From positions 1 to 41,243 of the forward strand of contig JACYLU010000024.1 in assembly GCA_015272325.1 (NCBI GenBank): DNA of 41,243 nt, in the 5' to 3' direction. The notes below the pieces were generated by a model. That model was not told where the DNA came from. It was given only the letters and a program-made list of their open reading frames with translations, and ran no database searches. Below are positions 19,946-41,243 of the stretch, piece by piece. Made by a program: the position numbers and the translations under genes. This DNA comes from Synechococcales cyanobacterium C42_A2020_086. Lineage in GTDB: Bacteria > Cyanobacteriota > Cyanobacteriia > Elainellales > Elainellaceae. Numbering within the stretch: position 1 is the stretch's first letter; each line of letters begins with the position of its first letter.

Positions 19946-20401
19946 ATGCGTTGCTTACCCAGTTCGCAAACGGTACGCCTAACGTCGGTCACTCGGTTAG
20001 CAGGGCCTAGGACCAGGAAATTTTGGTCAACATGGGCCTGGGCGGGATTGCTCTGGGCAGGACTATCGGTTGGACTAGTCCCCAGAGGGGTGGGGCAATC
20101 GGTTGCTCCAGAACCCGTCCCGGAACCGATTCCAGCTCAAGAGGACAGCGCACCGCCCGAGGCGTTGTCTACCCCGCTCACCCTAGAAGAGTGGGATTTT
20201 GAATCGCCGCTAGAGCCAATTCAATCGCCGCTAGAGCCAATTCAGTCAGCACCGCCTCCAACTCCCCCACCGACCCCACAACCATTGCCGGCTGAGCCGC
20301 TGCGGGTTCCTGCGGGAGGGGTGGATCTCCCAGGGCAGCCTCCTCCAGGCAGCCAAACCCCTGCCCAAGAGACGCCGAACCAACTGCAATTTCGGTTCTA
20401 G
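19946..20401 (+). CDS. Small proline-rich exported protein
   Basis: The 151-residue protein has an N-terminal basic region and a hydrophobic stretch (WAWAGLLWAGLSVGLVPRGV) typical of a signal sequence. The rest is rich in Pro, Glu and Gln (PEPVPEPIPAQ, PPPTPPPTPQPLP), expected to be disordered outside the inner membrane. A perfect 21-bp tandem duplication at 20202-20243 doubles SPLEPIQ. GGAGG lies about 10 bases before the ATG, which supports the start. The C-terminus QLQFRF ends abruptly with an aromatic residue, reminiscent of outer-membrane protein ends, so a truncated larger protein cannot be excluded. It overlaps the 3' end of the LuxR-type ORF by 4 bp. Function unknown. Confidence 0.55.
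   Translation: MRCLPSSQTVRLTSVTRLAGPRTRKFWSTWAWAGLLWAGLSVGLVPRGVGQSVAPEPVPEPIPAQEDSAPPEALSTPLTLEEWDFESPLEPIQSPLEPIQSAPPPTPPPTPQPLPAEPLRVPAGGVDLPGQPPPGSQTPAQETPNQLQFRF
20202..20243 (+). repeat. Perfect 21-bp in-frame tandem duplication
   Basis: Positions 20202-20222 and 20223-20243 are identical, encoding SPLEPIQ twice in the proline-rich exported protein. Confidence 0.9.
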
Positions 20402-20649
20402 CGGCCCGAAGGTGAGTGGGGTTGCCATCGGGCTGCCTGCCCTCGCGATTTGGTTTCTTCGAGCAGATTGTTCTCTATCAATCGCGCTACCATAGCGGTT
20501 CTAGAGGCCACCCCCAGCTTGGTAAAGATGCGGCGCAGATAGGTTGAAACCGTCCACGGGCTGATGCCTAAGATACTGCTAATGTGCTTGTTGGGATGCT
20601 CCTGAGCCACTAACTGACCGAATTCGAGAACAGGTTTTAGAGGAGGCAA
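20398..20649 (-). CDS. Short LuxR-type helix-turn-helix protein, possibly truncated at its start
   Basis: The 83-residue frame contains a clear LuxR/FixJ-type HTH: GQLVAQEHPNKHISSILGIS then PWTVSTYLRRIFTKLGV and SRTAMVARLIENNLLEE (residues about 11-64). Short stand-alone proteins of this kind exist in cyanobacteria, so it might be nearly full length and functional. However, the first ten or so codons (MPPLKPVLEF) lie antisense to a decayed MNT gene fragment at 20616-20662 that is nearly identical to sequence inside the cas operon. The native N-terminus therefore seems to have been replaced at a recombination joint. The frame stays open through the joint. Whether it is expressed is unknown; I consider remnant and functional gene about equally likely. 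Confidence 0.5.
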   Translation of the reverse strand: MPPLKPVLEFGQLVAQEHPNKHISSILGISPWTVSTYLRRIFTKLGVASRTAMVARLIENNLLEETKSRGQAARWQPHSPSGR

Positions 20650-20690
20650 TTCCTTTGTGAGGGATGAACGCGAACGGCGAGTCCATGAAT
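20616..20690 (+). pseudogene. Remnant of a second MNT/HEPN toxin-antitoxin pair
   Basis: Positions 20616-20662 match 26442-26488 with only three mismatches. Read in the plus frame the segment encodes DRIREQVLEEAIPL and a stop, against DRIREQVLREAIPL and a stop at the C-terminus of the MNT antitoxin in the cas operon. The overlapping GTGA and a decayed start of a HEPN-like frame follow (VRDERERRV, then a stop a few codons on, versus VRSDRQRLV). Upstream of 20616 similarity stops abruptly and LuxR-type sequence on the other strand begins. It is a dead fragment, left after a duplication or rearrangement. Confidence 0.75.
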
Positions 20691-21163
20691 AGTGTTACCC
20701 AGGCAATGATGAATTGTCACGACGAATGTAAATACCCAATGATATCTGGATGATTCCCTCCAGGTGATTCCCTAACTTTATCATTGGAGCCGATGTGAAC
20801 CCCAATGCATGGGCGTTGGCATCCAGCAGAAACTTAGATAGACAATTAGATAGACAAAAGGTTGCCATAATTTTGATGGGCACGTTTGAGTTCAGCAGCA
20901 ATTTGTGTGGCTAACCAAATTGGCTGCACAACCTGTATATTCTTGACGTACTTAAGAGTCTGCTGCCGAAAGGATCTTCTCTAGAGTGGCAAAGTTGGAT
21001 TCATCGTCTCTTGAAGATTCCCGAACAACAGCTATATAAAAATTAATCTTTCCTCTAGAAACCCGGAAGCGTTTTTGCCGGGTTGTGCGTTTAGCATTGA
21101 AAAATCTCACGGTTGTATCAATGTATGTCTCGGCACCTTGAACGTTGACTCCAGATTGATTAG
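20691..21163. other. Stretch without a recognisable gene between fragments and the cas operon
   Basis: Two minus-strand frames are open here (20695-20901 and 20952-21272), but neither resembles a family I know, neither has a clear ribosome site, and the second runs into the WYL fragment. A perfect 12-bp tandem duplication (TTAGATAGACAA) lies at 20834-20857. The last part should contain the promoter of the cas operon. The sequence composition and mix of fragments suggest gene decay at the edge of an acquired block. Confidence 0.4.
20834..20857. repeat. Perfect 12-bp tandem duplication
   Basis: TTAGATAGACAA occurs at 20834-20845 and 20846-20857. It is non-coding, in the decayed region upstream of the cas operon. 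Confidence 0.85.
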
Positions 21164-21541
21164 ATGATTCGAGCAAATGTTCGCTACACCTCAGATGATA
21201 TTGCCAATATCCCGAAGGACAAACCTGAGATTGATTCAGCATTCGATCACGAAGCCCATTTTGAGTTGGCATTTCAGCATGAAGTCAGCGGCATTCCAAG
21301 CGAAATCGCAATCTACTGCGACGCAGAAACAGTTCCCTATATTCGAGAACGACACTGGCATCCGACACAGCAAATTGATGAAAATGCTGATGGTTCATTG
21401 ACGCTGTGTTTTGTCGCAAAGGGGTTGAATGGAGTGAAGCGTTGGGTCTTGTTTCACGGCAGTGGAGCCAAAGTTCTAGAACCCGCCGAACTAGTGCACA
21501 TGGTGCGACAGGAAATTCAAGCAATGCAGCAATGCTATTGA
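21164..21541 (+). CDS. C-terminal fragment of a WYL-domain transcriptional regulator
   Basis: The 125-residue frame matches the C-terminal (WCX-type) extension of WYL regulators. Diagnostic stretches are VPYIRERHWHPTQQIDENAD, GSLTLCFVAKGLNGVKRWVL and GSGAKVLEPAELVHMVRQEI (residues about 57-120). Full-length family members have about 300-350 residues, with an N-terminal winged helix and the WYL domain, both missing here; a TAG stop lies directly before the ATG, so the truncation is real in this sequence. WYL proteins commonly sit next to and repress cyanobacterial cas operons. The gene ends 13 bp before cas3, in the expected place. The fragment might still oligomerise or bind effector but should not bind DNA. 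It may be a pseudogene. Confidence 0.7.
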   Translation: MIRANVRYTSDDIANIPKDKPEIDSAFDHEAHFELAFQHEVSGIPSEIAIYCDAETVPYIRERHWHPTQQIDENADGSLTLCFVAKGLNGVKRWVLFHGSGAKVLEPAELVHMVRQEIQAMQQCY

Positions 21542-21554
21542 AAGGACTCAACTG

Positions 21555-24260
21555 ATGCGCAACGAGATTGAGCAAAACTTCCAGACGCTAATAGGATTTC
21601 CACCTAGACAGTTTCAGATCGAGACGATCACAAAACTCCTTCAATTACACAACGTCCTGCTTCGTGCACCCACAGGTTCTGGAAAAACAGAAACGGCGAT
21701 CGCCCCTTTTCTGTTTGCGAAACAGATGGGAGTTGAGGACTTCCCCAACAAGCTGATTTATATCGTGCCCTTGAGAACGTTGGCAACGAGTCTGCGCGAT
21801 CGCGCTGTGAAGCTAGTCAAAACTTGGGAAAGTGTGCATCCGCCTAAACGACCCTTAGTTGTAACTCTACAAACGGGAGAAAATCCAGAAGATCCAAGAT
21901 TTGAGGGCGACATTGTTTTTTGCACGATCGATCAGCTCTTGAGTAGCTTTCTCAGCATTCCCTATTCGGTTGGTCGAGGATCGGCAAATGTGAACGCAGG
22001 CGTTGTGTTTGCGTCTTATCTCGTGTTTGATGAACTACATTTGCTTGATCCCAATCGCAGTTTTGCAACCACTCTAAAGCTGTTGAAACAGGTGCAGGGT
22101 GTTTCACCTTATCTTTTGATGACTGCAACTCTAACGCATGAATTAACACAGCAGGTTCAGCAGGAGGTGACACCAAGAAATTGCAAGCCAGAGGAAGCAT
22201 TGAGCTTAGTCAATGTTGAGGGTAATGATCTAAAGCAAATTGAAGGCAGTCGCCAGAGGCAATTCATTCCCTGTGAAGAGCCTTTGAGCGCTGAGGTAAT
22301 TTTACGGGATGTTCAGCAGAACGATCGCAAGCGTGTGATTGTTATCTGCAACACTGTTGCAAGGTCGCAGAGCTTGTTTCAGAATCTGCGCGATATTGCA
22401 CCAGAGACAATCAAGATAGTATTGCTGCACGCGCGCTTTTTACCTGAAGATCGAAAACAGACGGAAGCCAAGCTGCAAAGAATTTTTGCCAAAAATTGGA
22501 CGGATGATGGCCTTTGTTATGTATTGATATCAACACAAGTTATAGAAGCTGGAATCAATATCACTTCGCAAGTAATGCATACACAGCTTTGTCCAATGAA
22601 TGCGTTGTTACAACGTGCAGGACGATGCGCACGATTTGCAGACGAAACGGGCCAGGTTTTGGTCTATCGACAGATGCGAGTGAGCGATAAGCACCAAGGT
22701 TTGGCAGCATCTGAAGACGATGATGAGGCGATCGCGCAAACAGAAAATCGTAAACGCCGCCAATTCCTACCTTACTCTGATAAAACCTGCGAGTTAACCT
22801 GGACAGTTCTGTTAGAGCACAGGTCAGCGGGGCGAGTGGATCTACCTGTGGGCTTTGCGATAGAAGAAGCCTGGATTAACAATGTGCATGGCGAAGAAGA
22901 CCGGGTCCAGGCAGGAAAGCGATTGCAGAATAGGAGCCAGTTTGAGCTTGATTTTGATGATGCTGTGTTTCGAGGTAAACGCCATGTTGCCGAAAATCTA
23001 ATCCGTCAAGTCGATAATCGCAGTGTGTTTATGGTTGAAGATGCGGCAATAATCGATCTGGATATTTCTGAAGACGTTGATGTCAGACAACTTCAGCCTT
23101 TTTCGCTGCCTCGAACAACCCTAATCAAGCTTTGGCGAGAGTATGTAGATAGTCATCACCAGACTTGGCTGTTTAAGAAGGTCGAGTCAGAGAGCAAATC
23201 AGCAGAAGGATACGTCTTGCCAAAAGCAAAGCCGATTAAAACACAGCAAGAACTGACAGAGAGCATTCGCTTGGTGGTCAATCCAAGCTACGTGAGCTAT
23301 GACAGCGATATTGGATTGCAGATCGGTGTGCATATTCAAGGTCACTATCGATCACCTAAGAAGCCGAAATCTAAGGTGAGTAAAGAATACAGCTACAAAA
23401 TGGATACCTATCTAGGGCATCTAGGACGAATTTGGACTTGCTGGGAACGAGATTTCAATGGAGAGGTGCTGATTGATGGGCAACCAACAGTGGTCAAGCT
23501 GTCTAGCGTCTGTGGGGAACTGGGGCTTGCAGGGGGAAAGTTTATCTTACGTAAGTTTTTTCCGCAGGCAACGCTACCCCAAACCATTGCCCTATTTGAG
23601 TTTTTAGTATTCCTCGCAGTCATTACCCACGATCTGGGCAAACTTCAGGTGGGGTGGCAGAGTGCAATGCGCGGATGGCAGAAAACCGCTTTTGAGCTGT
23701 ATTGCAGCTTGTCTGAAAAACCTGACTTCGAAATTATGAATCCAGGGAATCACCTACTCGCACACACCGATCATCATCCTGAGAACGAGATCTTCAAAAA
23801 AGCCTATGAAACCTATACGGCTCAGCATCCGCGTCCATCTCATGCAGTAGAAAGTGCTTTTATCGCCTATGACTTACTAGATGCGGTCTTAATTCCCGTC
23901 CTGGAAGAGCAATATAGGGCAGATGAGACGCAGGTAAATTTGATTCGTCACACAATCGAGATGGCAGCCGGGCGACATCATTCAGCCTGGGCAAAGGGAT
24001 GGGAAGACTCCAGTGCAACAATCCAGCTCCATCCGGAAGCGAATAAGGCAATTCAGCAGAGTTGGCAGCAGCTCAGCCGTCGCCTCAAAGGAAAATTACT
24101 CCTACCCGATCAACTCCCACAGCTTGAGCACACTTACGAGATGGAAGAATTCTCCCTTGGCAAGGAGATTGGGGAAGCTGATTTGCCTTACCAGCAGCTT
24201 TACTGGTTGGTCGTTAGGGCACTCCGCATCTGTGACGGGCGGTCGGTGCAGTTGCATTAG
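21555..24260 (+). CDS. cas3: Cas3 helicase-nuclease with C-terminal HD domain
   Basis: The 901-residue protein is the effector helicase-nuclease that degrades DNA opened by Cascade. The superfamily 2 helicase is N-terminal: Walker A APTGSGKT (residues 38-45), Walker B DELH (159-162), motif III MTAT (189-192), STQVIEAGINI (about 326-336) and motif VI QRAGRCAR (353-360). The HD phosphohydrolase domain is at the C-terminus, with candidate metal ligands H622 in TYLGHLG, H692-D693 in VITHDLGK, the His in RPSHAVES and the HH in AAGRHHSAW. Most type I systems carry HD at the N-terminus or as a separate protein; C-terminal HD is best known from type I-G. All key residues appear intact. AAAGGA lies 8-9 bases before the ATG, and the gene follows the WYL fragment by 13 bp, so they should share a transcript. 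Confidence 0.93.
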   Translation: MRNEIEQNFQTLIGFPPRQFQIETITKLLQLHNVLLRAPTGSGKTETAIAPFLFAKQMGVEDFPNKLIYIVPLRTLATSLRDRAVKLVKTWESVHPPKRPLVVTLQTGENPEDPRFEGDIVFCTIDQLLSSFLSIPYSVGRGSANVNAGVVFASYLVFDELHLLDPNRSFATTLKLLKQVQGVSPYLLMTATLTHELTQQVQQEVTPRNCKPEEALSLVNVEGNDLKQIEGSRQRQFIPCEEPLSAEVILRDVQQNDRKRVIVICNTVARSQSLFQNLRDIAPETIKIVLLHARFLPEDRKQTEAKLQRIFAKNWTDDGLCYVLISTQVIEAGINITSQVMHTQLCPMNALLQRAGRCARFADETGQVLVYRQMRVSDKHQGLAASEDDDEAIAQTENRKRRQFLPYSDKTCELTWTVLLEHRSAGRVDLPVGFAIEEAWINNVHGEEDRVQAGKRLQNRSQFELDFDDAVFRGKRHVAENLIRQVDNRSVFMVEDAAIIDLDISEDVDVRQLQPFSLPRTTLIKLWREYVDSHHQTWLFKKVESESKSAEGYVLPKAKPIKTQQELTESIRLVVNPSYVSYDSDIGLQIGVHIQGHYRSPKKPKSKVSKEYSYKMDTYLGHLGRIWTCWERDFNGEVLIDGQPTVVKLSSVCGELGLAGGKFILRKFFPQATLPQTIALFEFLVFLAVITHDLGKLQVGWQSAMRGWQKTAFELYCSLSEKPDFEIMNPGNHLLAHTDHHPENEIFKKAYETYTAQHPRPSHAVESAFIAYDLLDAVLIPVLEEQYRADETQVNLIRHTIEMAAGRHHSAWAKGWEDSSATIQLHPEANKAIQQSWQQLSRRLKGKLLLPDQLPQLEHTYEMEEFSLGKEIGEADLPYQQLYWLVVRALRICDGRSVQLH

Positions 24261-24319: not shown

Positions 24320-26164
24320 ATGGTTTGTAATTTAAAGATTCCAAAGCAGTACGGAACTTACACAGATGTATGTTTAATGCTAGGTTTGGCACGACTTACC
24401 TACGCTGTTCAGTTTGCACTCCACGAAGCGAAGAAACTGAAGCTAACTGATTTGGGTGCGAGCTATCGGATTCAGTTGGAGCAAGAACTTGACCCGGAGG
24501 AAGTTGCTGCTACGCTACAGTACGAAAACCTTTTGCAACCCGTCAAAGGAGACAAAACAGAGGCGATCGCAGGCTTAGATTGGTCTGAACTGAAATTCTT
24601 TGATACCAAGCGAAACACCGAAATTCGCAGTCGCTATCTGGAATTTCAGCGTCAATTGAAACGCGAAAAGCTAGAGCTGGCAGATGATGACGAGATAGAA
24701 GTACCAGATGCCAGAACTCAAAATGGCGTTATTTTGACCTCAATGCGGCACGATCGCAACCATAATGGGCTTTGGAAAGCTGGATGGGATATTCAGCAGC
24801 ATTTTGGAGCGTTAGCTGCATCTGCTTTGAAAGCCTTTGCTGAAAGCGATGAACGATCGCAGGGCAATGAAATTTCTCAGGCAGCAGCCTATTTCAAAAC
24901 CTACACAGGTGAAAACCTTCCGACTCCAGTTAGTGCAGTAAAAATCTTTTTCCCAACGTTTGTGCAGGGGGTGAATCGACCCAAGGCAGACACTAACAAA
25001 GTTGATGGGAGTGGGCAAAAAGAGGAATGGCTGTTGCTATGGCTGATTGCGATCGGACTGTTTGAGTTTGGCATTGCTGAACGAATCAAGATTTCCGACA
25101 ATGCCTTTGATTGGCGCATGGTTTTGCTAGAACCCAGAGAACTCAGCCTTTCTAGCTACCGAGACATTTTAGATGAAGTGAGGATATACAGTCCGCCTAG
25201 TGGCGCACACGGTGTTGCCCGCTTTGATGCAGAAATGTCACTGGGATTATCCAAAGCCCTGTTGAAATATCACCCTGCTAAAGGAGTCAGTGAACCCGTC
25301 AGGCGGCGATCGCGTAGCTCATCGATCAAAGAGATGGTTTCCGGGTTTAGCGGGACGCACTTCGGCTCTAAAGGACAGGTCTATGGCGTGAAAGAAGTTT
25401 TTAGTCTTGGACTGCCTGATTGGATACGACCGGAAACAGCAGAGGAGGTAAGAAACTATCAGAAGTTACTCGATGAGCATCTGACAGTCGTGCGATCGCT
25501 TTCGAGCAGTGAAGGCAACGGAGAACTTCTCAATGCTTATCGTGACTTTATTACAGGCGGTGATCTCAACCAATTTTTCCGCTTTCACATTAGCTATGCG
25601 GATTATATCGTGCGGCAACTGGCAGACCCAAAAGCGAAATACGCACCGAAACAGTTTTCTCAAGAAGGACTAGACATCATGACTCGAAGCTTTGACAAGA
25701 CCGATCAGAACTGGTCAATCAAAGAAATTACCCAGAACAAAGGTTTTCTCAGAATTGCGAGAGCAATCAACAGTGCTACGGTTTACGCTGGAAAAATCAA
25801 AACGAAAGAAGGGGTAGTAGAACTTGACTGGCAGCGCACCTATGGACTGGCTCAAAGATTGAGCAATCAAATGGGTTCCAAACAAGACTTCATTGCTGAA
25901 CTTTCGGCGTTCCTGACCAGCTACGACAATGAAAATGTGCGAATTTCCGAACAGCTCCTGAAGGAGAATAAGTCGCTGAGAAGGGTTTGGGTTACAAATG
26001 AAGATTTAGAGGAATTCCTAGCACTACTTGATGATCAACGCTTTAAATGGAGTCTTGTTGCCAATCTACTTTTGGCATATGGCTACGCAAAATGGAGAAA
26101 ACCATTGGAAGGCGAACCGGACGGCGCACCTTCTGGAGACGACGATGCCAACGAAAGCGAATAA
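24320..26164 (+). CDS. Large Cascade subunit, Cas8-like (divergent)
   Basis: The 614-residue protein sits where the type I large subunit belongs, between cas3 and cas7, and has the size for it. I assign it by position and size, not by a motif. It contains few cysteines and no C-x-x-C zinc pairs, unlike many Cas8a/Cas8b proteins, and no HD or GGDD palm motifs, so it is not Cas10d (Csc3). Regions of note are RTQNGVILTSMRHDRNHNGL (about 131-150) and the central EEWLLLWLIAIGLFEFG (about 235-251). The C-terminus ends in an acidic low-complexity tail (GAPSGDDDANESE). A separate small subunit gene is absent, so that function may be encoded here, perhaps as an internal translation product of the C-terminal helices. 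It begins 59 bp after cas3; the antitoxin start codon follows its stop by 10 bp. Confidence 0.75.
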   Translation: MVCNLKIPKQYGTYTDVCLMLGLARLTYAVQFALHEAKKLKLTDLGASYRIQLEQELDPEEVAATLQYENLLQPVKGDKTEAIAGLDWSELKFFDTKRNTEIRSRYLEFQRQLKREKLELADDDEIEVPDARTQNGVILTSMRHDRNHNGLWKAGWDIQQHFGALAASALKAFAESDERSQGNEISQAAAYFKTYTGENLPTPVSAVKIFFPTFVQGVNRPKADTNKVDGSGQKEEWLLLWLIAIGLFEFGIAERIKISDNAFDWRMVLLEPRELSLSSYRDILDEVRIYSPPSGAHGVARFDAEMSLGLSKALLKYHPAKGVSEPVRRRSRSSSIKEMVSGFSGTHFGSKGQVYGVKEVFSLGLPDWIRPETAEEVRNYQKLLDEHLTVVRSLSSSEGNGELLNAYRDFITGGDLNQFFRFHISYADYIVRQLADPKAKYAPKQFSQEGLDIMTRSFDKTDQNWSIKEITQNKGFLRIARAINSATVYAGKIKTKEGVVELDWQRTYGLAQRLSNQMGSKQDFIAELSAFLTSYDNENVRISEQLLKENKSLRRVWVTNEDLEEFLALLDDQRFKWSLVANLLLAYGYAKWRKPLEGEPDGAPSGDDDANESE

Positions 26165-26174
26165 GGAGAGTTCG

Positions 26175-26486
26175 ATGCAGCACCATTCCGGCATAGGGGT
26201 TAGCGCTCTGCTCAGCGAGCAGCGTCAAGCCATTCTGGCAATCGCTGCCAAACATGGAGCCTACAATGTGCGGGTGTTTGGTTCAGTGGCGCGGGGCGAG
26301 GCAGATGAGCAAAGCGATATTGATCTATTGGTAGATTACTCGCTCGATCGCGTCTCTCCCTGGTTTCCAGCCGGCTTAAAACTAGAGCTAGAGCAGTTGT
26401 TGGGGCGGAAGGTAGACATCGCCACAGAAGCCGCCCTCACAGACCGAATTCGAGAACAGGTTTTAAGAGAGGCAATTCCTTTGTGA
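26175..26486 (+). CDS. mntA: MNT-type minimal nucleotidyltransferase antitoxin
   Basis: The 103-residue protein has the nucleotidyltransferase signature GSVARGEADEQSDIDLLVDY (residues 36-55) with catalytic D48 and D50. Such MNT proteins pair with HEPN toxins; in the experimentally studied cyanobacterial pair the MNT protein inactivates HEPN by adding AMP to a tyrosine. The open frame extends upstream inside cas8 to 26028, but an AAGGAG site at 26163-26168, overlapping the cas8 stop, sits 6 bases before the ATG at 26175, which settles the start. Its stop overlaps the GTG start of the HEPN gene (GTGA). The near-identical 3' end of this gene is repeated as a remnant at 20616-20662. Confidence 0.9.
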   Translation: MQHHSGIGVSALLSEQRQAILAIAAKHGAYNVRVFGSVARGEADEQSDIDLLVDYSLDRVSPWFPAGLKLELEQLLGRKVDIATEAALTDRIREQVLREAIPL

Positions 26487-26821
26487 GGAGCGATCGTCAA
26501 CGGTTAGTCGATATTTTGGAGGCGATTGCTCAAATCGAACGGTATGCTTTTCGGGGACAGAGCAGCTTTTATCAGGAAGAACTGATCCAAGTCTGGATCG
26601 TGCATCATCTGCAAATCATCGGAGAAGCCTCCAGTTCTCTATCTCAAGAATTCGTTCAGCAAAACTCCGAAATTCCCTGGGCAGAAATTATCGCATTCCG
26701 CAATATCCTAGTTCACGAGTACTTTAGGGTTGACTTACAGCTTGTTTGGCGCATTGTTGAAGGGGATTTACCCGACCTCAAGTCCAATATTCAAAGATTA
26801 ATACAAGGACACGAATCATGA
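26483..26821 (+). CDS. hepT: HEPN-domain RNase toxin (DUF86-like)
   Basis: The 112-residue helical protein carries the HEPN catalytic motif R-x4-H-x-Y in RNILVHEYF (R73, H78, Y80). In the characterised cyanobacterial HEPN/MNT pair, HEPN is a tRNA-cleaving RNase and the tyrosine of this motif is the residue AMPylated by the antitoxin; by homology Y80 should be that site. All three residues are intact, so the toxin is probably active when freed. It starts with GTG at 26483, overlapping the antitoxin stop, and ends in an ATGA overlap with cas7. That arrangement ties its translation to both neighbours. Its likely role is to make loss or failure of this operon costly to the cell, or to arrest growth during infection; both are inference. 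Confidence 0.9.
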   Translation: MRSDRQRLVDILEAIAQIERYAFRGQSSFYQEELIQVWIVHHLQIIGEASSSLSQEFVQQNSEIPWAEIIAFRNILVHEYFRVDLQLVWRIVEGDLPDLKSNIQRLIQGHES

Positions 26822-27792
26822 CTCAAGCTACGCTTCCGGTTTATTCAATTTCAATTTCCGGTTTGCTGTCCTGGCAGCTTCATGCACTCAACAATGAAGG
26901 TAATGAAGGTAACCAGTCTCTTACGCGTCGGTATTACATTATCGACAAAAATGATCCAGAGCCGCAGTATGTAAATGGGATTTCTGGTGATATGCTGAAG
27001 CATATTCAAGCCGAGCATTTGCATCGGGTGGCGATCGAGTCAGGATTGAGTCTTTCCCAGGGTGGAATGAAGTTTAACCCCGATCGCATTGGCTATGACA
27101 TCAGTATTGAAACGAAAGAAACTCCCTTCTTTACGAATCAAGAGTCTGATTTAACAGCTCGCACAAACAAAGTTCTCAACTTGTGTGCAATCAGCGATCT
27201 GGAAGGATTTATGGTGACGGTTAAAGGTGGACAAACCCTTAAACGCGAATCAGTGATTGAATTTGGTGCTGTAGTTGGAATCCCAGGTTCAGTCAAGACC
27301 CAGAGCTACTTTCATGCTAAGTATGGCGTTGACAACCCCACACCGTACAACGTGCAGGTCAGTTCAGGTTTATACGCGACGGTGCTGAACATTGAAGCAT
27401 TTCGGATTGGCTATAATCCTCACAGCTTTGGCTATGCGATCGACGCTGCTGAGCGCAAAAAGCGGTTAGATGCGCTACTCAAGAGCGTGCTGTATACCTA
27501 CCTTCAGCCGAATGGAGCCAAACGCAACACGCACCTGCCGCACCCCGATCGCTTTGAAGGAGTGATCACGGTTAGCACAAAACGCTGCCCTGCACCCATG
27601 ATCAGCCCTTTGCAGATTGAGAGCTATCAGCGGCAAATCAGCGGCTTGGCTCAAACCCTGAATCGCATCAATGGGGAAGGAACGATTATTGAATATCCCT
27701 TTGAGGACTTTGCCCAATTTGCAGAACGGATCGAACAGCTCATTCAACACACACAGCCCTGGGAGACAACCAATGGCGAAGGCAACGAGTAA
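26818..27792 (+). CDS. cas7: Cas7 backbone subunit, DevR/Csa2-like
   Basis: The 324-residue protein is the RAMP-fold subunit that coats the crRNA in Cascade. It has the DevR/Csa2-type N-terminus, SISISGLLSWQLHALNNEGN, then a charged loop and YVNGISGDMLKHIQAEHLHR (residues about 52-72), a stretch typical of I-A/I-B Cas7 proteins. Later motifs are IEFGAVVGIPGSVKTQSYFH and YATVLNIEAFRIGYN. This is not the I-D Csc2 family. The ATG overlaps the HEPN stop (ATGA), preceded by AAGGA 7 bases upstream. An in-frame 9-bp duplication gives NEGNEGN at residues about 26-32. The 3' end overlaps cas5 by 20 bp and includes a 12-bp tandem duplication spanning its stop codon. Confidence 0.9.
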   Translation: MTQATLPVYSISISGLLSWQLHALNNEGNEGNQSLTRRYYIIDKNDPEPQYVNGISGDMLKHIQAEHLHRVAIESGLSLSQGGMKFNPDRIGYDISIETKETPFFTNQESDLTARTNKVLNLCAISDLEGFMVTVKGGQTLKRESVIEFGAVVGIPGSVKTQSYFHAKYGVDNPTPYNVQVSSGLYATVLNIEAFRIGYNPHSFGYAIDAAERKKRLDALLKSVLYTYLQPNGAKRNTHLPHPDRFEGVITVSTKRCPAPMISPLQIESYQRQISGLAQTLNRINGEGTIIEYPFEDFAQFAERIEQLIQHTQPWETTNGEGNE

Positions 27793-31617: not shown

Positions 31618-34600
31618 GTCGCAATTCCCAAATCCCGGTCTACGGGACTGAAACATTGTGGTTTCGCGGATCTGACAATCTACGAGAATGTCGCAATTCC
31701 CAAATCCCGGTCTACGGGACTGAAACCTCAGCTCCGGAATCGAGGAGACTGCCGACGTTGCCGTCGCAATTCCCAAATCCCGGTCTACGGGACTGAAACG
31801 GGGGCTTGGCAGGCAGCGACAAAGCCCTCCAGAAAGAGTCGCAATTCCCAAATCCCGGTCTACGGGACTGAAACCCGCCGCAACCGCGGACGCAGAGATT
31901 AGCGCAAATCGTCGCAATTCCCAAATCCCGGTCTACGGGACTGAAACAGCCTCAAAATCTTCCGCCTCTTGCAAACGCAGCTCCAGTCGCAATTCCCAAA
32001 TCCCGGTCTACGGGACTGAAACACCGCCTTGGGAGAGCTGGCGGCCGGAGCAGGGGCAGTCGCAATTCCCAAATCCCGGTCTACGGGACTGAAACGCTTC
32101 AGGTCAAAATTATTTAAATAAGACTCCAGCTGTCGCAATTCCCAAATCCCGGTCTACGGGACTGAAACTATCCGCTGGAGTTGGTCGAAAGAGCGGCTGA
32201 GATTTTGGTCGCAATTCCCAAATCCCGGTCTACGGGACTGAAACTCAAACTCGCTGCCCACGCGGAGCAAATAGGCGGGTGTTGGTCGCAATTCCCAAAT
32301 CCCGGTCTACGGGACTGAAACCTCGTCAGCGTCTTTCAGAGTACGAGCTGCTCGACTGTCGCAATTCCCAAATCCCGGTCTACGGGACTGAAACGTGACT
32401 TACGGGCTGGAGTCAAGGTTTCAGGTCTATGTCGCAATTCCCAAATCCCGGTCTACGGGACTGAAACACCCTCGCAGGAGCGCTGGCCGGCGTAGCTGCA
32501 GTTGTCGCAATTCCCAAATCCCGGTCTACGGGACTGAAACGCCAATCGACTGTCCGAGGAGAAAGCGCAGATTGCGGTCGCAATTCCCAAATCCCGGTCT
32601 ACGGGACTGAAACTAGGTTCCTATCTGCCCGGCTAGGGACTGCAGGATTATGTCGCAATTCCCAAATCCCGGTCTACGGGACTGAAACCGTCTGCCAGCT
32701 CGCGGGCCTTGGTCTCTAGCGCCTGTCGCAATTCCCAAATCCCGGTCTACGGGACTGAAACCATGCAGGTGGATTCGCCGAATCGGATCGGGGTCGGTCG
32801 CAATTCCCAAATCCCGGTCTACGGGACTGAAACCCTTTTTACCTTTATACTCGATTACGGGATGTTCCGTCGCAATTCCCAAATCCCGGTCTACGGGACT
32901 GAAACATATTTGCGGCCCCGTGCGCTCGCGCCCAGTCAACCGTCGCAATTCCCAAATCCCGGTCTACGGGACTGAAACTATAAATACTGTGGATAAGATA
33001 AGAGATGCAATTGAGGTCGCAATTCCCAAATCCCGGTCTACGGGACTGAAACATCAAAATGCAGGTCGCCGGGTCCGCCGCCCGACCAGTCGCAATTCCC
33101 AAATCCCGGTCTACGGGACTGAAACCGTATCCTGACTGAGTCGAAGTCCCAGGCGGGACAGGTCGCAATTCCCAAATCCCGGTCTACGGGACTGAAACGC
33201 TAACTCCAAGAATTTCTCGCACTCGGCTATCGGCGTCGCAATTCCCAAATCCCGGTCTACGGGACTGAAACCTCTCCTCGGCAACGAGCACCTGAATATT
33301 AGACGTAAGTCGCAATTCCCAAATCCCGGTCTACGGGACTGAAACTAAGTCTGAGCGATTGATCTGGCGCACGCGGTTTGTCGTCGCAATTCCCAAATCC
33401 CGGTCTACGGGACTGAAACAATTCTCAGCCTTTGAAACGCGCCGTGGCGCACCAGGGTCGCAATTCCCAAATCCCGGTCTACGGGACTGAAACCAAGCCC
33501 GGACGCCCTCGAGTTCTGCTGCTCGAGGAGTGTCGCAATTCCCAAATCCCGGTCTACGGGACTGAAACGTCGTCGTCGGTCCGCCGCACGCCGGGCTTGA
33601 GGAAAGTCGCAATTCCCAAATCCCGGTCTACGGGACTGAAACGATCTTGCCACGATGCTTTTTGCAACCAAATACGCAATGGTCGCAATTCCCAAATCCC
33701 GGTCTACGGGACTGAAACTCCTTTCGCCGGAGGCGACTCCAGCAATCGCTCCCCAGTCGCAATTCCCAAATCCCGGTCTACGGGACTGAAACACCGCAGC
33801 AGTTACAAAGCCGTGGGCGGGTCGATTGGTCGCAATTCCCAAATCCCGGTCTACGGGACTGAAACGAGGAATTTTGTCCAGCGCCTGAAAACCCGTCGCT
33901 GGGTCGCAATTCCCAAATCCCGGTCTACGGGACTGAAACACTTTGCAGATGATGAGCAGCGCATTGCTCGTTTCGGGTCGCAATTCCCAAATCCCGGTCT
34001 ACGGGACTGAAACTCGCGCTATTGCGATCCGGCGATACGGGCTGATCCAGTCGCAATTCCCAAATCCCGGTCTACGGGACTGAAACGGTGTGCACTCTTG
34101 ATAAAAACGCTTCCAAACTGGAAGGTCGCAATTCCCAAATCCCGGTCTACGGGACTGAAACTCGGTTGTGTCAACGGTCTGGTCTTGGGATTGCAGGGTC
34201 GCAATTCCCAAATCCCGGTCTACGGGACTGAAACCCTGGTCGGTCCTTGCGACCTCAGCGCCGATAGCTAGTCGCAATTCCCAAATCCCGGTCTACGGGA
34301 CTGAAACTCCTTTCGCCGGAGGCGACTCCAGCAGTCGCTCCCCAGAGTCGCAATTCCCAAATCCCGGTCTACGGGACTGAAACCCTAAAAAGACCGCTCC
34401 GCAGGCGTTGCCGCCCAAGCGTCGCAATTCCCAAATCCCGGTCTACGGGACTGAAACACGATCCGCAGATAGGCGTTGCTGGTTAAAACAGCGAGTCGCA
34501 ATTCCCAAATCCCGGTCTACGGGACTGAAACACGGCTCCAGCCGCCAGAGTAATTGTCTGGGCGTCGTCGCAATTCCCAAATCCCGGTCTACGGGACTGA

Positions 34601-37600
34601 AACTCCGAACTCAAAAAGCGATGGACCGCCTAAAACGGGTCGCAATTCCCAAATCCCGGTCTACGGGACTGAAACACTTGAAAATCAATCACCGCTACAT
34701 CTTCCCATTGGTCGCAATTCCCAAATCCCGGTCTACGGGACTGAAACCTGCCAAACCGCTGCTCCTTACTGCCGCCAAATAGCGTCGCAATTCCCAAATC
34801 CCGGTCTACGGGACTGAAACGAGTCTTTGCCCCAGCTGACCGCCACGCAGGGGTTGGTCGCAATTCCCAAATCCCGGTCTACGGGACTGAAACCCAGGCT
34901 CAAAAGCTGGCGACAAACCCCAGCGTCAGGTCGCAATTCCCAAATCCCGGTCTACGGGACTGAAACGGTCAGTCCGGCGCTAGATTTAATCGACTGCACG
35001 TTGTGGTCGCAATTCCCAAATCCCGGTCTACGGGACTGAAACTCCGAACTCAAAAAGCGATGGACCGCCTAAAACGGCGTCGCAATTCCCAAATCCCGGT
35101 CTACGGGACTGAAACGTCCCCAATCTGGCAGTAGTACACGCTCTCCCTGAAGTCGCAATTCCCAAATCCCGGTCTACGGGACTGAAACCCCTAGAGAGCA
35201 GCTAAGACTCTCTGGACCTCGAATCGTCGCAATTCCCAAATCCCGGTCTACGGGACTGAAACCCTTCCTGGGGCTGCTAGGGGTCTCTCCTGCGATTTGT
35301 CGCAATTCCCAAATCCCGGTCTACGGGACTGAAACGCTTAGACACAACTTTCACTGAGCCTAAGCGAGTAGCAAAGTCGCAATTCCCAAATCCCGGTCTA
35401 CGGGACTGAAACACCGCAAACGATTATCGAGATTTTATTCAAGACTATATCGTCGCAATTCCCAAATCCCGGTCTACGGGACTGAAACGTTTCAACGCAT
35501 GAAGCCACAAAAATTACAAGAAAGTCGCAATTCCCAAATCCCGGTCTACGGGACTGAAACCCCTACAACTAACGACCGATTATCATCAAAGAGGATACGA
35601 GTCGCAATTCCCAAATCCCGGTCTACGGGACTGAAACACAATTAGCTCCGCTGAAGCCGAATCTTCTGGAGAAGGGTCGCAATTCCCAAATCCCGGTCTA
35701 CGGGACTGAAACTTTGAGTAAGGATAAGGCTCTCCAGGAATCATATGATTGTCGCAATTCCCAAATCCCGGTCTACGGGACTGAAACTTGCTGTTATAGG
35801 TCCAGCTCGCCGTCGTTTCTAGCGTCGCAATTCCCAAATCCCGGTCTACGGGACTGAAACAAATGTCCTCCAGGAATAATAGGAGCCGCTAAATCGAGTC
35901 GCAATTCCCAAATCCCGGTCTACGGGACTGAAACTGTTGTCTCATGCCGGGGATTTGGTTCAGCAGGGAGTCGCAATTCCCAAATCCCGGTCTACGGGAC
36001 TGAAACGCTTTGAGGCACGCCTCGCAAAAAAGGAGAATGCCGAGTCGCAATTCCCAAATCCCGGTCTACGGGACTGAAACGGATACACTTTACTGAAACT
36101 GCGTTTTACAGAGTCGGTCGCAATTCCCAAATCCCGGTCTACGGGACTGAAACCCTTTTTCCATCGCCGTGATGCTCTAGTTTTACCCTTGTCGCAATTC
36201 CCAAATCCCGGTCTACGGGACTGAAACTTTGTGCCCTTGAATTCTCCGAGGGTGCTGTCTAGTCGCAATTCCCAAATCCCGGTCTACGGGACTGAAACCC
36301 TAACATGCGATTTGGTTTGATTGGGGGAGCAACGTCGCAATTCCCAAATCCCGGTCTACGGGACTGAAACGAATACAGCGAGGATCGCCCGGTGCGGCGA
36401 ATCGGTTCGTCGCAATTCCCAAATCCCGGTCTACGGGACTGAAACTATGTTGACAATGGCAGATACGCTGATCAAACTGGCTGTCGCAATTCCCAAATCC
36501 CGGTCTACGGGACTGAAACTTGCCAAGGTTTTTCATAAATCTTGGCAACACTATGGTCGCAATTCCCAAATCCCGGTCTACGGGACTGAAACTCCCTGGT
36601 CAATAAGGTCTTGGGTTGTTAGAGGACAATAGTTGTCGCAATTCCCAAATCCCGGTCTACGGGACTGAAACACTCTAAATTTAGACTTAAACCTACCGAA
36701 AGCTTGGCGTCGCAATTCCCAAATCCCGGTCTACGGGACTGAAACGAACCAAAATCTCAGATTAAAGAGCGATTGAGTCGATGTCGCAATTCCCAAATCC
36801 CGGTCTACGGGACTGAAACGGCGTAAGACCGTCGTATGGTTTCAAAATGACCACTTGTCGCAATTCCCAAATCCCGGTCTACGGGACTGAAACTTTTTTA
36901 ATCATTTCTTCGAACACTTCCCCATTTCTCGTCGCAATTCCCAAATCCCGGTCTACGGGACTGAAACATCTTTGGCGATTTGCTGAATTTGATCGACTGT
37001 TAAGTCGCAATTCCCAAATCCCGGTCTACGGGACTGAAACCCCAAAATTAACGACGAGAAAAACCCTGATATCGCTGTCGCAATTCCCAAATCCCGGTCT
37101 ACGGGACTGAAACTCCGCTGTGGCTGTTCCCAATTTGCCAATGGCAAAAATAGTCGCAATTCCCAAATCCCGGTCTACGGGACTGAAACGTCAAAGATCC
37201 GCCTCCTTTACGGTTACAAGGCTATGTCGCAATTCCCAAATCCCGGTCTACGGGACTGAAACGAGGAACTCCGATCCTTGCTGCTGCCGATGGCACTGGT
37301 CGCAATTCCCAAATCCCGGTCTACGGGACTGAAACCTGACCTATCGTCGTAAGACGATGGAACTAATCAAGTCGCAATTCCCAAATCCCGGTCTACGGGA
37401 CTGAAACTGAAATCTACGGCTCCACCCGTTACCTCTGTAGATGTGAGTCGCAATTCCCAAATCCCGGTCTACGGGACTGAAACAAGACCAAAAACGACAG
37501 GCACTGACATTATTAGGTGAGTCGCAATTCCCAAATCCCGGTCTACGGGACTGAAACTTCCACAATGTCACCTATGGAGCAACATGGAACGGGTTGGTCG

Positions 37601-40600
37601 CAATTCCCAAATCCCGGTCTACGGGACTGAAACAGGAAGCCCTTCCTAAAACACCTGAGAATAAACCAGGTCGCAATTCCCAAATCCCGGTCTACGGGAC
37701 TGAAACTCCAATAAACATCTTTGAGATGTTTTCTGATGTCTTGTCGCAATTCCCAAATCCCGGTCTACGGGACTGAAACCTCTGTGCGACCTGCATATAG
37801 TCTGCAAAAGATCAAGTCGCAATTCCCAAATCCCGGTCTACGGGACTGAAACCCACACCCGGAATCACCCGGGGTTTCGGGGGACGGGGTGTCGCAATTC
37901 CCAAATCCCGGTCTACGGGACTGAAACTCGCGCGTTTCCGCTGGCGCACTGGACGACAAAGGGTCGCAATTCCCAAATCCCGGTCTACGGGACTGAAACC
38001 TGCACACTTATGCTTTGCTGCAATGTCTGAGATGAGTCGCAATTCCCAAATCCCGGTCTACGGGACTGAAACGGATCTAGCTACGAACTACGCTGGACGT
38101 GTTGACGCCACGGTCGCAATTCCCAAATCCCGGTCTACGGGACTGAAACGCCAATAACATTCCCCCTCCAAGCAACGCCCCTCCTCGTCGCAATTCCCAA
38201 ATCCCGGTCTACGGGACTGAAACTGGGATCGGAGAATCCACGGGCGATCAGAGAGATCGTGTCGCAATTCCCAAATCCCGGTCTACGGGACTGAAACCAT
38301 CTCAATCTCTTTGTGAGCATCCACCCCCAATTGAACGTCGCAATTCCCAAATCCCGGTCTACGGGACTGAAACCCTTTTTCTTAACAGGTTAGACGAGAA
38401 ATCCCCGCAGGAAGTCGCAATTCCCAAATCCCGGTCTACGGGACTAAAACATCCCGGAGCGGCGTTAAAGTCCACTGCACAGCGGGTCGCAATTCCCAAA
38501 TCCCGGTCTACGGGACTGAAACCTAGATGGTGAATGCCAAAAGGTATGCCAACCACAAGTCGCAATTCCCAAATCCCGGTCTACGGGACTGAAACTAGGT
38601 AGTGGTCCCGCTTACTACAAGAACATCACGGTGTCGCAATTCCCAAATCCCGGTCTACGGGACTGAAACTAGGCTTCTCAGATATTCCGGAGAATATGGA
38701 GAACTTGTCGCAATTCCCAAATCCCGGTCTACGGGACTGAAACTTGCCGGAAAAGCGTAGGCAAATAGTGCGAGAAAAGCGGTCGCAATTCCCAAATCCC
38801 GGTCTACGGGACTGAAACCCTGTAGGACAGCGCTATTCTACTCGCTCATTGATTGTCGCAATTCCCAAATCCCGGTCTACGGGACTGAAACCGATTCAAG
38901 GATCGGGGTTACAGGGGTGGGATGCACTAGTCGCAATTCCCAAATCCCGGTCTACGGGACTGAAACATGTTAGGAACCTCGCTTAATGACGATGCGAAAT
39001 TCGGGTCGCAATTCCCAAATCCCGGTCTACGGGACTGAAACACTTTGCAGATGATGAGCAGCGCATTGCTCGTTTCGGGTCGCAATTCCCAAATCCCGGT
39101 CTACGGGACTGAAACTGGAGCGCTCTCTCTACTCTAGCAGATGTTAGCTCGTCGCAATTCCCAAATCCCGGTCTACGGGACTGAAACTCGCAGCCGTGCC
39201 AACGGGGAGACAGAGGATACTTATCGGTCGCAATTCCCAAATCCCGGTCTACGGGACTGAAACTCGGGATCAGCTTAGTCTAGAGCGTCGAACTCGCAGG
39301 TCGCAATTCCCAAATCCCGGTCTACGGGACTGAAACCGAAATTAGGGCTTGCTACAAAGGTGAACCCGTTCAGTCGCAATTCCCAAATCCCGGTCTACGG
39401 GACTGAAACACAACGTTACTTGCATTAGCACTCTCTGTACTATTAGTCGCAATTCCCAAATCCCGGTCTACGGGACTGAAACGCAGTGCGTTTGTCATTA
39501 GCGTGACACCTCAGATCCAGGGTCGCAATTCCCAAATCCCGGTCTACGGGACTGAAACCCTTCTTGGTTCCTGGCACATCGTTATCCTGAAGGAGTCGCA
39601 ATTCCCAAATCCCGGTCTACGGGACTGAAACTCTTTCGCTGTAGCGTCACTTCCTCTTTGTGGCGCTCGTCGCAATTCCCAAATCCCGGTCTACGGGACT
39701 GAAACCTTCTCCTACTACTATTCATGTCGCCCACGCTACAGGTCGCAATTCCCAAATCCCGGTCTACGGGACTGAAACGATTCTGCACTACCCAGTCCAT
39801 TTGATCGAGTGAGTCGCAATTCCCAAATCCCGGTCTACGGGACTGAAACTCGTTGTGCGAGCACTTGATAACCAATGAGGAGTACTGTCGCAATTCCCAA
39901 ATCCCGGTCTACGGGACTGAAACCAGGACAATCATTGCTGCATAGGCAACAGCGGCAGATGTCGCAATTCCCAAATCCCGGTCTACGGGACTGAAACGAG
40001 ACGCCACATGCAATGCATGGTCCAAGTCTGCCGAGTCGCAATTCCCAAATCCCGGTCTACGGGACTGAAACAATGTAAACCGGCGAATGGGTCTCACGAA
40101 CCACCATCGTCGCAATTCCCAAATCCCGGTCTACGGGACTGAAACCAGCGTTAGTTACCCAGATCACTGACCAGCTTAGCGTCGCAATTCCCAAATCCCG
40201 GTCTACGGGACTGAAACTTGTAGCACCTTATACCTCTCGGTAACATATGGGCAGTCGCAATTCCCAAATCCCGGTCTACGGGACTGAAACCCGTTAAGAA
40301 ACGCACCGCTGAGATCTGCCTTGCTGAGGTCGCAATTCCCAAATCCCGGTCTACGGGACTGAAACCTTCTCCTACTACTATTCATGTCGCCCACGCTACA
40401 GGTCGCAATTCCCAAATCCCGGTCTACGGGACTGAAACGTGCCGGCAGGCCGGGCTGTCCTACTCTCGTGGCGGTCGCAATTCCCAAATCCCGGTCTACG
40501 GGACTGAAACAACGCTTTCAGAGCGGTAGCTCCCAAGCTGAGAAGCGTCGCAATTCCCAAATCCCGGTCTACGGGACTGAAACGTTCATTACGGCGGAAT

Positions 40601-41174
40601 TCGTTCGATTTCGTGCATCGGTCGCAATTCCCAAATCCCGGTCTACGGGACTGAAACTGTAACTGCGCTACCGTGCGAGCCCGTCCGTTGACGTGTCGCA
40701 ATTCCCAAATCCCGGTCTACGGGACTGAAACCTTGTAGATGGACGCGGCGTCCCAATCGCCTAGGGCGAGTCGCAATTCCCAAATCCCGGTCTACGGGAC
40801 TGAAACATTTCTGAGTCTGCAATCAAGTTTCCTGGTTTGCTGGGAGTCGCAATTCCCAAATCCCGGTCTACGGGACTGAAACTCTCCTACTCACTAGCAG
40901 GAGACGGGTTTAATATTGGTCGCAATTCCCAAATCCCGGTCTACGGGACTGAAACCAATCCTCTTAATTTCAAACATGCATCCTCACAAAGTCGCAATTC
41001 CCAAATCCCGGTCTACGGGACTGAAACTTTTCACTGATACACACCTTCAGAAGGATTGCTATAGTCGCAATTCCCAAATCCCGGTCTACGGGACTGAAAC
41101 GCTGAGAAATCTGCTGCAATTCTCGTTCACGTAGCACGTCGCAATTCCCAAATCCCGGTCTACGGGACTGAAAC
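31618..41174 (+). CRISPR. CRISPR array, 130 repeats of 37 bp and 129 spacers
   Basis: I counted 130 repeat starts by reading, first at 31618 and last at 41138. The repeat begins GTCGCAATTCCC and ends GGGACTGAAAC; its hairpin is TCCCG-GTCTA-CGGGA. Spacers are 34-42 bp, mostly 35-38. All repeats look identical except the one at 38414-38450, where ACTGAAAC reads ACTAAAAC. Orientation is plus: the leader and cas2 are on the left and the conserved GAAAC end is on the right. Four spacer pairs are duplicated (33940/39042, 39706/40366, 34604/35043, and 33719/34308 with one mismatch). Hand counting could be off by one or two. Confidence 0.98.
38414..38450 (+). repeat. Single variant CRISPR repeat
   Basis: This repeat differs from all others at one base near its 3' end (ACTAAAAC instead of ACTGAAAC). 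The change falls in the segment expected to form the 5' handle of the following crRNA (spacer 38451-38485). Confidence 0.85.
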
Positions 41175-41243
41175 AATAAGTCTGTTGATAAGAGCTGATT
41201 TGTGAAGTAAACCTTAAGCAGCAAGCCGTTTAATCATCAAGCG
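41175..41243. other. Sequence after the array
   Basis: The last repeat is followed by 69 bp of unrelated, AT-rich sequence with no further repeat at the expected spacing, so the array ends here. No gene is visible before the window ends. Confidence 0.6.

Follow-up and report, generated by a model that had tools for sequence, protein, structure and literature searches.

A fragment of about 69 bp from an MNT/HEPN toxin-antitoxin junction beside a cyanobacterial type I-A-like cas operon, and the nesting of related pairs in CRISPR loci

The window, meaning the whole stretch of 41,243 nucleotides that was analysed and spanning all of contig C14, holds a cas operon in which an intact toxin-antitoxin gene pair of the MNT/HEPN kind is nested between cas8 and cas7, together with a short second copy of the junction of the two genes, referred to below as the scrap, that lies upstream of the operon among several damaged genes. 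The features on which the argument rests are the following.

20398-20616, minus strand: 3' fragment of a LuxR-type (GerE HTH) regulator, apparently cut inside the HTH at the MNT joint; Pfam GerE, positions 12-54 of 57.
20616-20662, plus strand: end of an MNT antitoxin frame (TDRIREQVLEEAIPL, then stop); 44/47 to 26442-26488.
20663-20684, plus strand: opening codons of a HEPN frame now decayed (RDERERRVH before a stop); 13/22 to 26489-26510.
20861-20971, minus strand: C-terminal tip of another WYL-domain regulator, similar to those transcribed divergently from type I-D cas3; homology to a Gloeothece verrucosa WYL protein.
21060-21084, plus strand: palindrome AACCCGG-N11-CCGGGTT, 40 bp before the WYL start.
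21125-21541, plus strand: WYL pseudogene of the operon; found by tblastn with intact WYL proteins (of genome G149 and others) and by Pfam WCX.
21555-24260, plus strand: cas3, a helicase with a weak HD match at the C-terminal end; profile matches.
24320-26164, plus strand: cas8 (Cas8a-like); PADLOC Cas8a, E 1.2e-34, with no Pfam or NCBIfam match.
26175-26486, plus strand: intact MNT antitoxin, MntA-like; Pfam PF01909 and PADLOC candidate PDC-S09, E 9.6e-39.
26483-26821, plus strand: intact HEPN toxin, HepT-like; Pfam PF01934, with no PADLOC match.
26818-27792, plus strand: cas7 (DevR/Csa2); profile matches.

The effector subunits of the operon are recognised by PADLOC as those of type I-A (Cas8a 1.2e-34, Cas5a 1.5e-66, Cas7a 8.7e-22), while the NCBIfam type I-A Cas7 model gives 75.8 bits, below its cut-off of 212.6, and the model nearest to the operon's Cas6 is Cas6d. 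Type I-A systems have separate Cas3' helicase and Cas3'' HD proteins, plus Csa5, whereas here a single Cas3 of 901 aa begins with the helicase and matches HD weakly at 680-889, and the operon is therefore named "I-A-like". A CRISPR array of more than 9 kb, at about 31628-41243, reaches the end of the contig. The two proteins of the nested pair carry, in translation, the motifs by which HepT/MntA (type VII) pairs are defined in the accessible text of PMC7641770, with GSX10DXD present in the MNT protein as GS-VARGEADEQS-DID and RX4HXY in the HEPN protein as RNILVHEY. Both pass the Pfam cut-offs for PF01909 and PF01934, and their NCBIfam MntA and HepT scores of 40.9 and 49.6 bits lie under the 60-bit cut-offs. 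Judged from its motifs and its position, the pair at 26175-26821 is probably a working HepT/MntA unit, in which MNT would add AMP to the HEPN RNase and which would make it costly to lose the operon.

How close are the scrap and the operon copy, and where does the likeness between them end? A match of 47 bp with three mismatches had been reported from the sequence-only reading, and the alignment bears out both the coordinates and the count, in that 20616-20662 and 26442-26488 are identical at 44 of 47 positions in direct orientation at an offset of 5826. The identity is unbroken over 24 bp (20616-20639) and again over 20 bp (20643-20662), and the three mismatches within the 47 bp are all confined to one codon, read from the alignments as GAG for AGA. 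The common antitoxin stop described earlier is present, with the MNT frame ending at a GTGA overlap in both copies, as is the decayed HEPN start, which reads VRDERERRVHE and a stop after the end of MNT, and whose weaker homology over 20663-20684 to 26489-26510 (13/22) is equalled by only 3 of 5000 shuffles. The scrap runs in total to about 69 bp (20616-20684), with some 15 MNT codons and 9 HEPN codons. Its left edge had been called abrupt and is so, the preceding bases (20594-20615) agreeing at the chance level of 8/22 (equalled by 1059 of 5000 shuffles), and the right edge is equally abrupt, with 6/22 over 20685-20706 (2462 of 5000).

Beyond these edges, searches for the body of MNT in 20300-20615 and for that of HEPN in 20685-21060 found neither, 188, 34 and 93 of 200 shuffles doing as well, and the other 580 bp or so of the pair has left no trace on either side. 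The scrap itself is not a HepT/MntA pair, as it holds no complete MNT and HEPN frames with catalytic motifs. Among direct pairs of 47-mers at least 1 kb apart within positions 1-31450 of the window, the next best after the scrap shares 31 positions, the same as in one shuffled control, and the best inverted pair shares 32. Within the 5.93 Mb of the organism's genome the scrap has one other match at E<=0.001, namely the operon copy, and a 536-base query finds five further matches at E<=5, each of 16-24 bp. Across 388 genomes of the class, 12 match the scrap at E<=0.01, its own genome counted, and MNT/HEPN genes are present at the match in 8 of the 11 loci from other genomes, the exceptions (L092, L093 and L094) being weak matches of 21-27 bp. 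These loci confirm that the element is, as first recognised, a broken second MNT/HEPN junction. A plasmid search with 20606-21135 returned zero matches and the exact junction pattern occurred 0 times in viral contigs; the intact pair is matched in 4 of 72,556 plasmid records, all cyanobacterial, at 60-80% identity.

The scrap belongs to a patch (20398-21541) in which all four recognisable gene pieces, namely luxR, the scrap, the WYL tip and the WYL pseudogene, are truncated or broken. On the left, profiles of the LuxR regulator from 24 of 25 relatives (L109 left out) match from about LEFGQLVAQ onward, and in the minus-strand frames to 21130 there is no confident N-terminal part; their best other frame has an E of 0.099 and lies at a different place. 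As the profiles lend no confident support beyond about LEFGQLVAQ, luxR is treated as cut at 20616, which is also the point up to which the relative L011 can be aligned. Read in this way, the scrap abuts cleanly at its left edge on a luxR gene truncated within the HTH, with an ambiguity of about 3 bp at the joint in the alignments. A luxR frame reading on through the MNT piece on the minus strand was considered, one LuxR query having aligned to 20691, and was rejected for lack of confident profile support; the same applies to the minus-strand stretches HYSWTRR and DIIGYLHSS, stop, QFII, which appeared LuxR-like and lie past the supported part.

On the right, the WYL tip (20861-20971) matches a Gloeothece verrucosa WYL protein at 46% over 37 aa, with E 8e-4 in the plasmid collection and 3.5e-10 for the region alone. 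The Gloeothece gene adjoins a type I-D cas3 and is divergent from it, and WYL regulators of type I-D, including Sll7009, are treated in the accessible parts of PMC4012209 and PMC10212523. The I-D-like tip hints at a lost I-D locus or regulator upstream. Against phages its 44 residues gave five Vibrio phage matches at E 0.7, taken as chance. The WYL pseudogene of the operon consists of a 27-codon N-terminal piece with two stops (21125-21205), a gap of about 180-190 missing codons and a WCX domain from about 21240; tblastn also gave a long list of weak matches, of which only the WYL pieces were used. The homologue in G149 is an open gene of 340 aa, and the operon in the window may have lost its WYL regulator. 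The palindrome before the pseudogene recurs in genome G015, shortly ahead of the WYL gene (L057 9868-9892), and otherwise, among 150 loci, only in pieces of the window; it is a possible candidate for a WYL operator or terminator.

Does the same arrangement occur in related operons? For this comparison 30 loci with relatives of the window's cas8 were used, near-duplicates included (L148 is contig G335:C22, L150 is genome G362 and L125 is nearly identical to G149). An MNT match is found in three, those of G149, Coleofasciculus S288 and Xenococcus PCC 7305. The first two, nearly identical to each other, have the pair at cas8/cas7 as in the window, and Xenococcus (L145 3221-4120) has a complete MNT frame, followed by no HEPN match, between cas3 and cas8. 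The remaining 27 loci, many on incomplete contigs, have no MNT match at E<=1e-3. A tree of 23 MNT proteins, kept after matches of less than about 80 residues or with stops were dropped, unites window, G149 and Coleofasciculus in one group (98/96), to which Xenococcus is only weakly joined (52/16, with all of them together in 56% of bootstrap trees). By parsimony, the entry of the pair at cas8/cas7 predates the split between the window lineage and G149. A search of related genomes for an intact pair upstream, as had been suggested, finds one at the operon head in 0 of the 30 loci, of which only 16 hold at least 2.8 kb upstream of a forward cas3.

A separate observation concerns the cas3-cas8 gaps of related operons (L131, L140, L074), which contain XisH, Uma2 or a DDE transposase as single cases and look like landing places. 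The inter-cas gaps of the other operons hold 123 ORFs, and among the ten scanned with Pfam these three families appear once each above cut-off, one further ORF has a match below cut-off only and six have no match.

The junctions themselves carry some information on the origin of the scrap. After MNT matches that stop short of residue 103 or are cut by a locus end were dropped, 42 were kept. Among the matches listed (40 of the 42), the MNT part of the scrap is nearest to the operon copy (44/47), then to Coleofasciculus (40/47), with the rest at 37 or fewer. For the HEPN part the 13/22 shared with the operon copy is equalled, among the matches listed, by the unrelated pairs L164, L176 and L088, and the HEPN start of the scrap keeps an E common to most listed pairs that the operon copy does not have. 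Divergence between scrap and operon copy is uneven (3/47 vs 9/22 differ, Fisher p 0.001), and that between operon copy and Coleofasciculus is likewise uneven, with 8/47 and 10/22 differing (39/47 and 12/22 identical). Polarised against 31 outgroup junctions, kept after MNT matches more than 80% identical or without a canonical ATGA/GTGA overlap were dropped, five derived sites are shared by scrap and operon copy, two by operon copy and Coleofasciculus and one by scrap and Coleofasciculus, a handful of sites that leans towards a copy made within the window's lineage.

The preferred reading, to which something close to an even chance is given, is that the scrap is an inert relic, the last 69 bp or so of a second MNT/HEPN pair that once stood at the operon head and of which the rest has been deleted. 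A second pair, presumed whole, would have sat at the head of the I-A-like operon with the nested cas8/cas7 pair as its nearest relative among the junctions compared, and the deletions presumed to have removed the remainder would also have truncated the neighbouring luxR and WYL genes. The HEPN start is still recognisable and in frame, and the family does occur at the operon head in type I-D loci. The relic is preferred over a partial copy because the recognisable neighbours of the scrap are the remains of whole genes, and since none of the four recognisable pieces is intact, a single process of decay by deletion could account for all of them. Weighing against it are the undetected remainder of the pair, the lack of a head pair in the 30 loci, 16 of which extend at least 2.8 kb upstream of cas3, and a HEPN part that is no nearer to the operon copy than to other pairs. 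Given the first two points, the sequence-only reading, in which either a pair once present outside the operon or a rearrangement of the operon block was taken as shown, was too firm on the whole pair. The uneven divergence (3/47 vs 9/22), as an argument against the relic, is not decisive.

The main rival is nearly as good, and the data do not separate it firmly from the relic. It holds that template switching or end joining placed a copy of 47-77 bp of the operon junction at the luxR breakpoint, and that there never was a whole second pair. This partial duplication is a genuine possibility, though short of a probable one. It would account for two abrupt edges with nothing else of the pair nearby, for a source in the same orientation only 5.8 kb away, for the placing of the scrap exactly at the luxR cut, where the joint is ambiguous by about 3 bp, and for the operon copy itself being the nearest relative. 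However, a recent dead fragment should diverge evenly, which the 3/47 and 9/22 do not, although the HEPN start evolves fast between intact copies too, and the other broken genes are left unexplained.

Less can be said for a recombination scar, which is unlikely. Here the operon block would have been joined to luxR, or exchanged, through MNT/HEPN homology, and its left end would have kept a piece of the junction. The joint does lie at the left end of the operon block, and the copies are in direct orientation with perfect runs of 24 bp and 20 bp; but neither run is long, the contig stops before the far end of the block on the other side of the CRISPR array, leaving no partner joint visible, and an exchanged product is seen in 0 of the 30 loci. 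Deletion or exchange through the two repeats had also been proposed for the segment between them. Nothing shows that it has taken place, and the longest perfect run, at 24 bp, is on the short side for RecA-dependent exchange. The segment had been described as WYL-cas3-cas8, and it does hold cas3 and cas8, but the WYL gene there is a pseudogene by tblastn. If the copies recombined, the inferred product would lack 5.8 kb, made up of the WYL pseudogene, cas3, cas8 and almost the whole of MNT, and its HEPN gene would stand without an antitoxin. A chance match or a widespread interspersed repeat, the latter being the alternative originally set against the junction, has a negligible probability and is for practical purposes already refuted, given a next-best direct match in the window no better than a single shuffle (31/47), two places in all in the genome at E<=0.001, and MNT/HEPN at 8 of the 11 foreign loci.

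What then of the family to which the pair belongs? Eleven distinct MNT/HEPN places, located by similarity to the pair rather than by cas genes, include three with a CRISPR neighbour. In G031 and G169 the gene order is WYL, MNT, HEPN and type I-D cas3, the cas3 of G031 being named type I-D by NCBIfam, and in G322 a WYL gene adjoins the pair with a cas3-like helicase about 7 kb further. G024 has a WYL gene some 12 kb from the pair, and the other seven places have no CRISPR or WYL match with the query proteins used. When an eight-row MNT alignment was run against 376 genomes, 115 matched at E<=1e-30, and among the best 30 loci seven have a match to cas or WYL proteins no further than about 1.5 kb away (window, G149, G031, G169, G322, G298 and G326), a count that is biased in that five of the seven are rows of the alignment and two query proteins (cas3 and WYL) come from G031. 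Among the 23 of these loci that are not alignment rows two are positive, G298, with the pair directly after cas3, and G326, with the pair between a partial WYL match and cas3; the comparison set of other HepT loci has 0 of 29. Intact relatives of the pair sit at several CRISPR-Cas positions, at cas8/cas7, at cas3/cas8 (antitoxin only) and, in type I-D loci, between cas3 and the WYL gene divergent from it. A wider proposal, at present doubtful, is that one MNT/HEPN family is a roaming passenger of cyanobacterial type I operons, which settles at various positions and penalises cas loss, with the 69-bp scrap as the footprint of one move within a single operon.

The HEPN gene of G031 (L051 9597-9806), beside its type I-D cas3, appears to break off some 14 codons in, with homology resuming about 130 bp on. 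A similar insertion was considered as the cause of the right edge of the scrap and was rejected, as the G031 insert bears no visible likeness to 20685-21060 (scores of 18 and 16, taken without a shuffled control).

The scrap is an ordinary leftover and is probably dead. Its value is as a pointer to a protein toxin-antitoxin pair that occurs complete, with its antitoxin, within cas loci of two subtypes and at several positions. Should nested pairs of this kind be active, a cell would pay a price for losing the operon or the cas8-cas7 stretch. It is the recurrent nesting of the MNT/HEPN family in CRISPR operons, rather than the scrap, that is the point worth following. In the literature searched, which excludes most subscription journals and of which parts of the texts were accessible, no description was met of type I-A or I-D cas operons with an MNT/HEPN pair nested inside them.

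Among known systems, the operon copy agrees with HepT/MntA (PF01934/PF01909) in having MNT before HEPN, a 4-nt overlap and both motifs, as set out in the accessible text of PMC7641770, and it differs in falling under the NCBIfam cut-offs and in lying inside a cas operon; the scrap differs in having no catalytic parts whatsoever. HEPN domains near CRISPR genes are familiar in other forms, and the available part of PMC3710099 describes MNT-HEPN pairs, the CARF-HEPN proteins of CRISPR systems and ABC-HEPN proteins found sporadically in CRISPR neighbourhoods, with the ABC-HEPN domain said to be close to the MNT-associated kind. The window shares with CARF-HEPN (the Csx1/Csm6 kind) and ABC-HEPN a HEPN RNase encoded near CRISPR, but those domains are fused to CARF or ABC whereas the HEPN protein of the window stands alone and is paired with MNT. 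As a sequence the scrap resembles other decayed toxin-antitoxin relics and pseudogene patches in being short, frame-broken and set beside truncated genes, and is unusual solely in adjoining a living copy. A further parallel is with CreTA, reviewed together with related units in PMC12737573, in whose accessible text HEPN/MNT are named solely in the reference list. Both are toxin-antitoxin units within a cas locus that could make cas loss costly; CreTA, however, is a pair of RNAs silenced by Cascade, whereas the pair in the window consists of two proteins with their own predicted chemistry of neutralisation.
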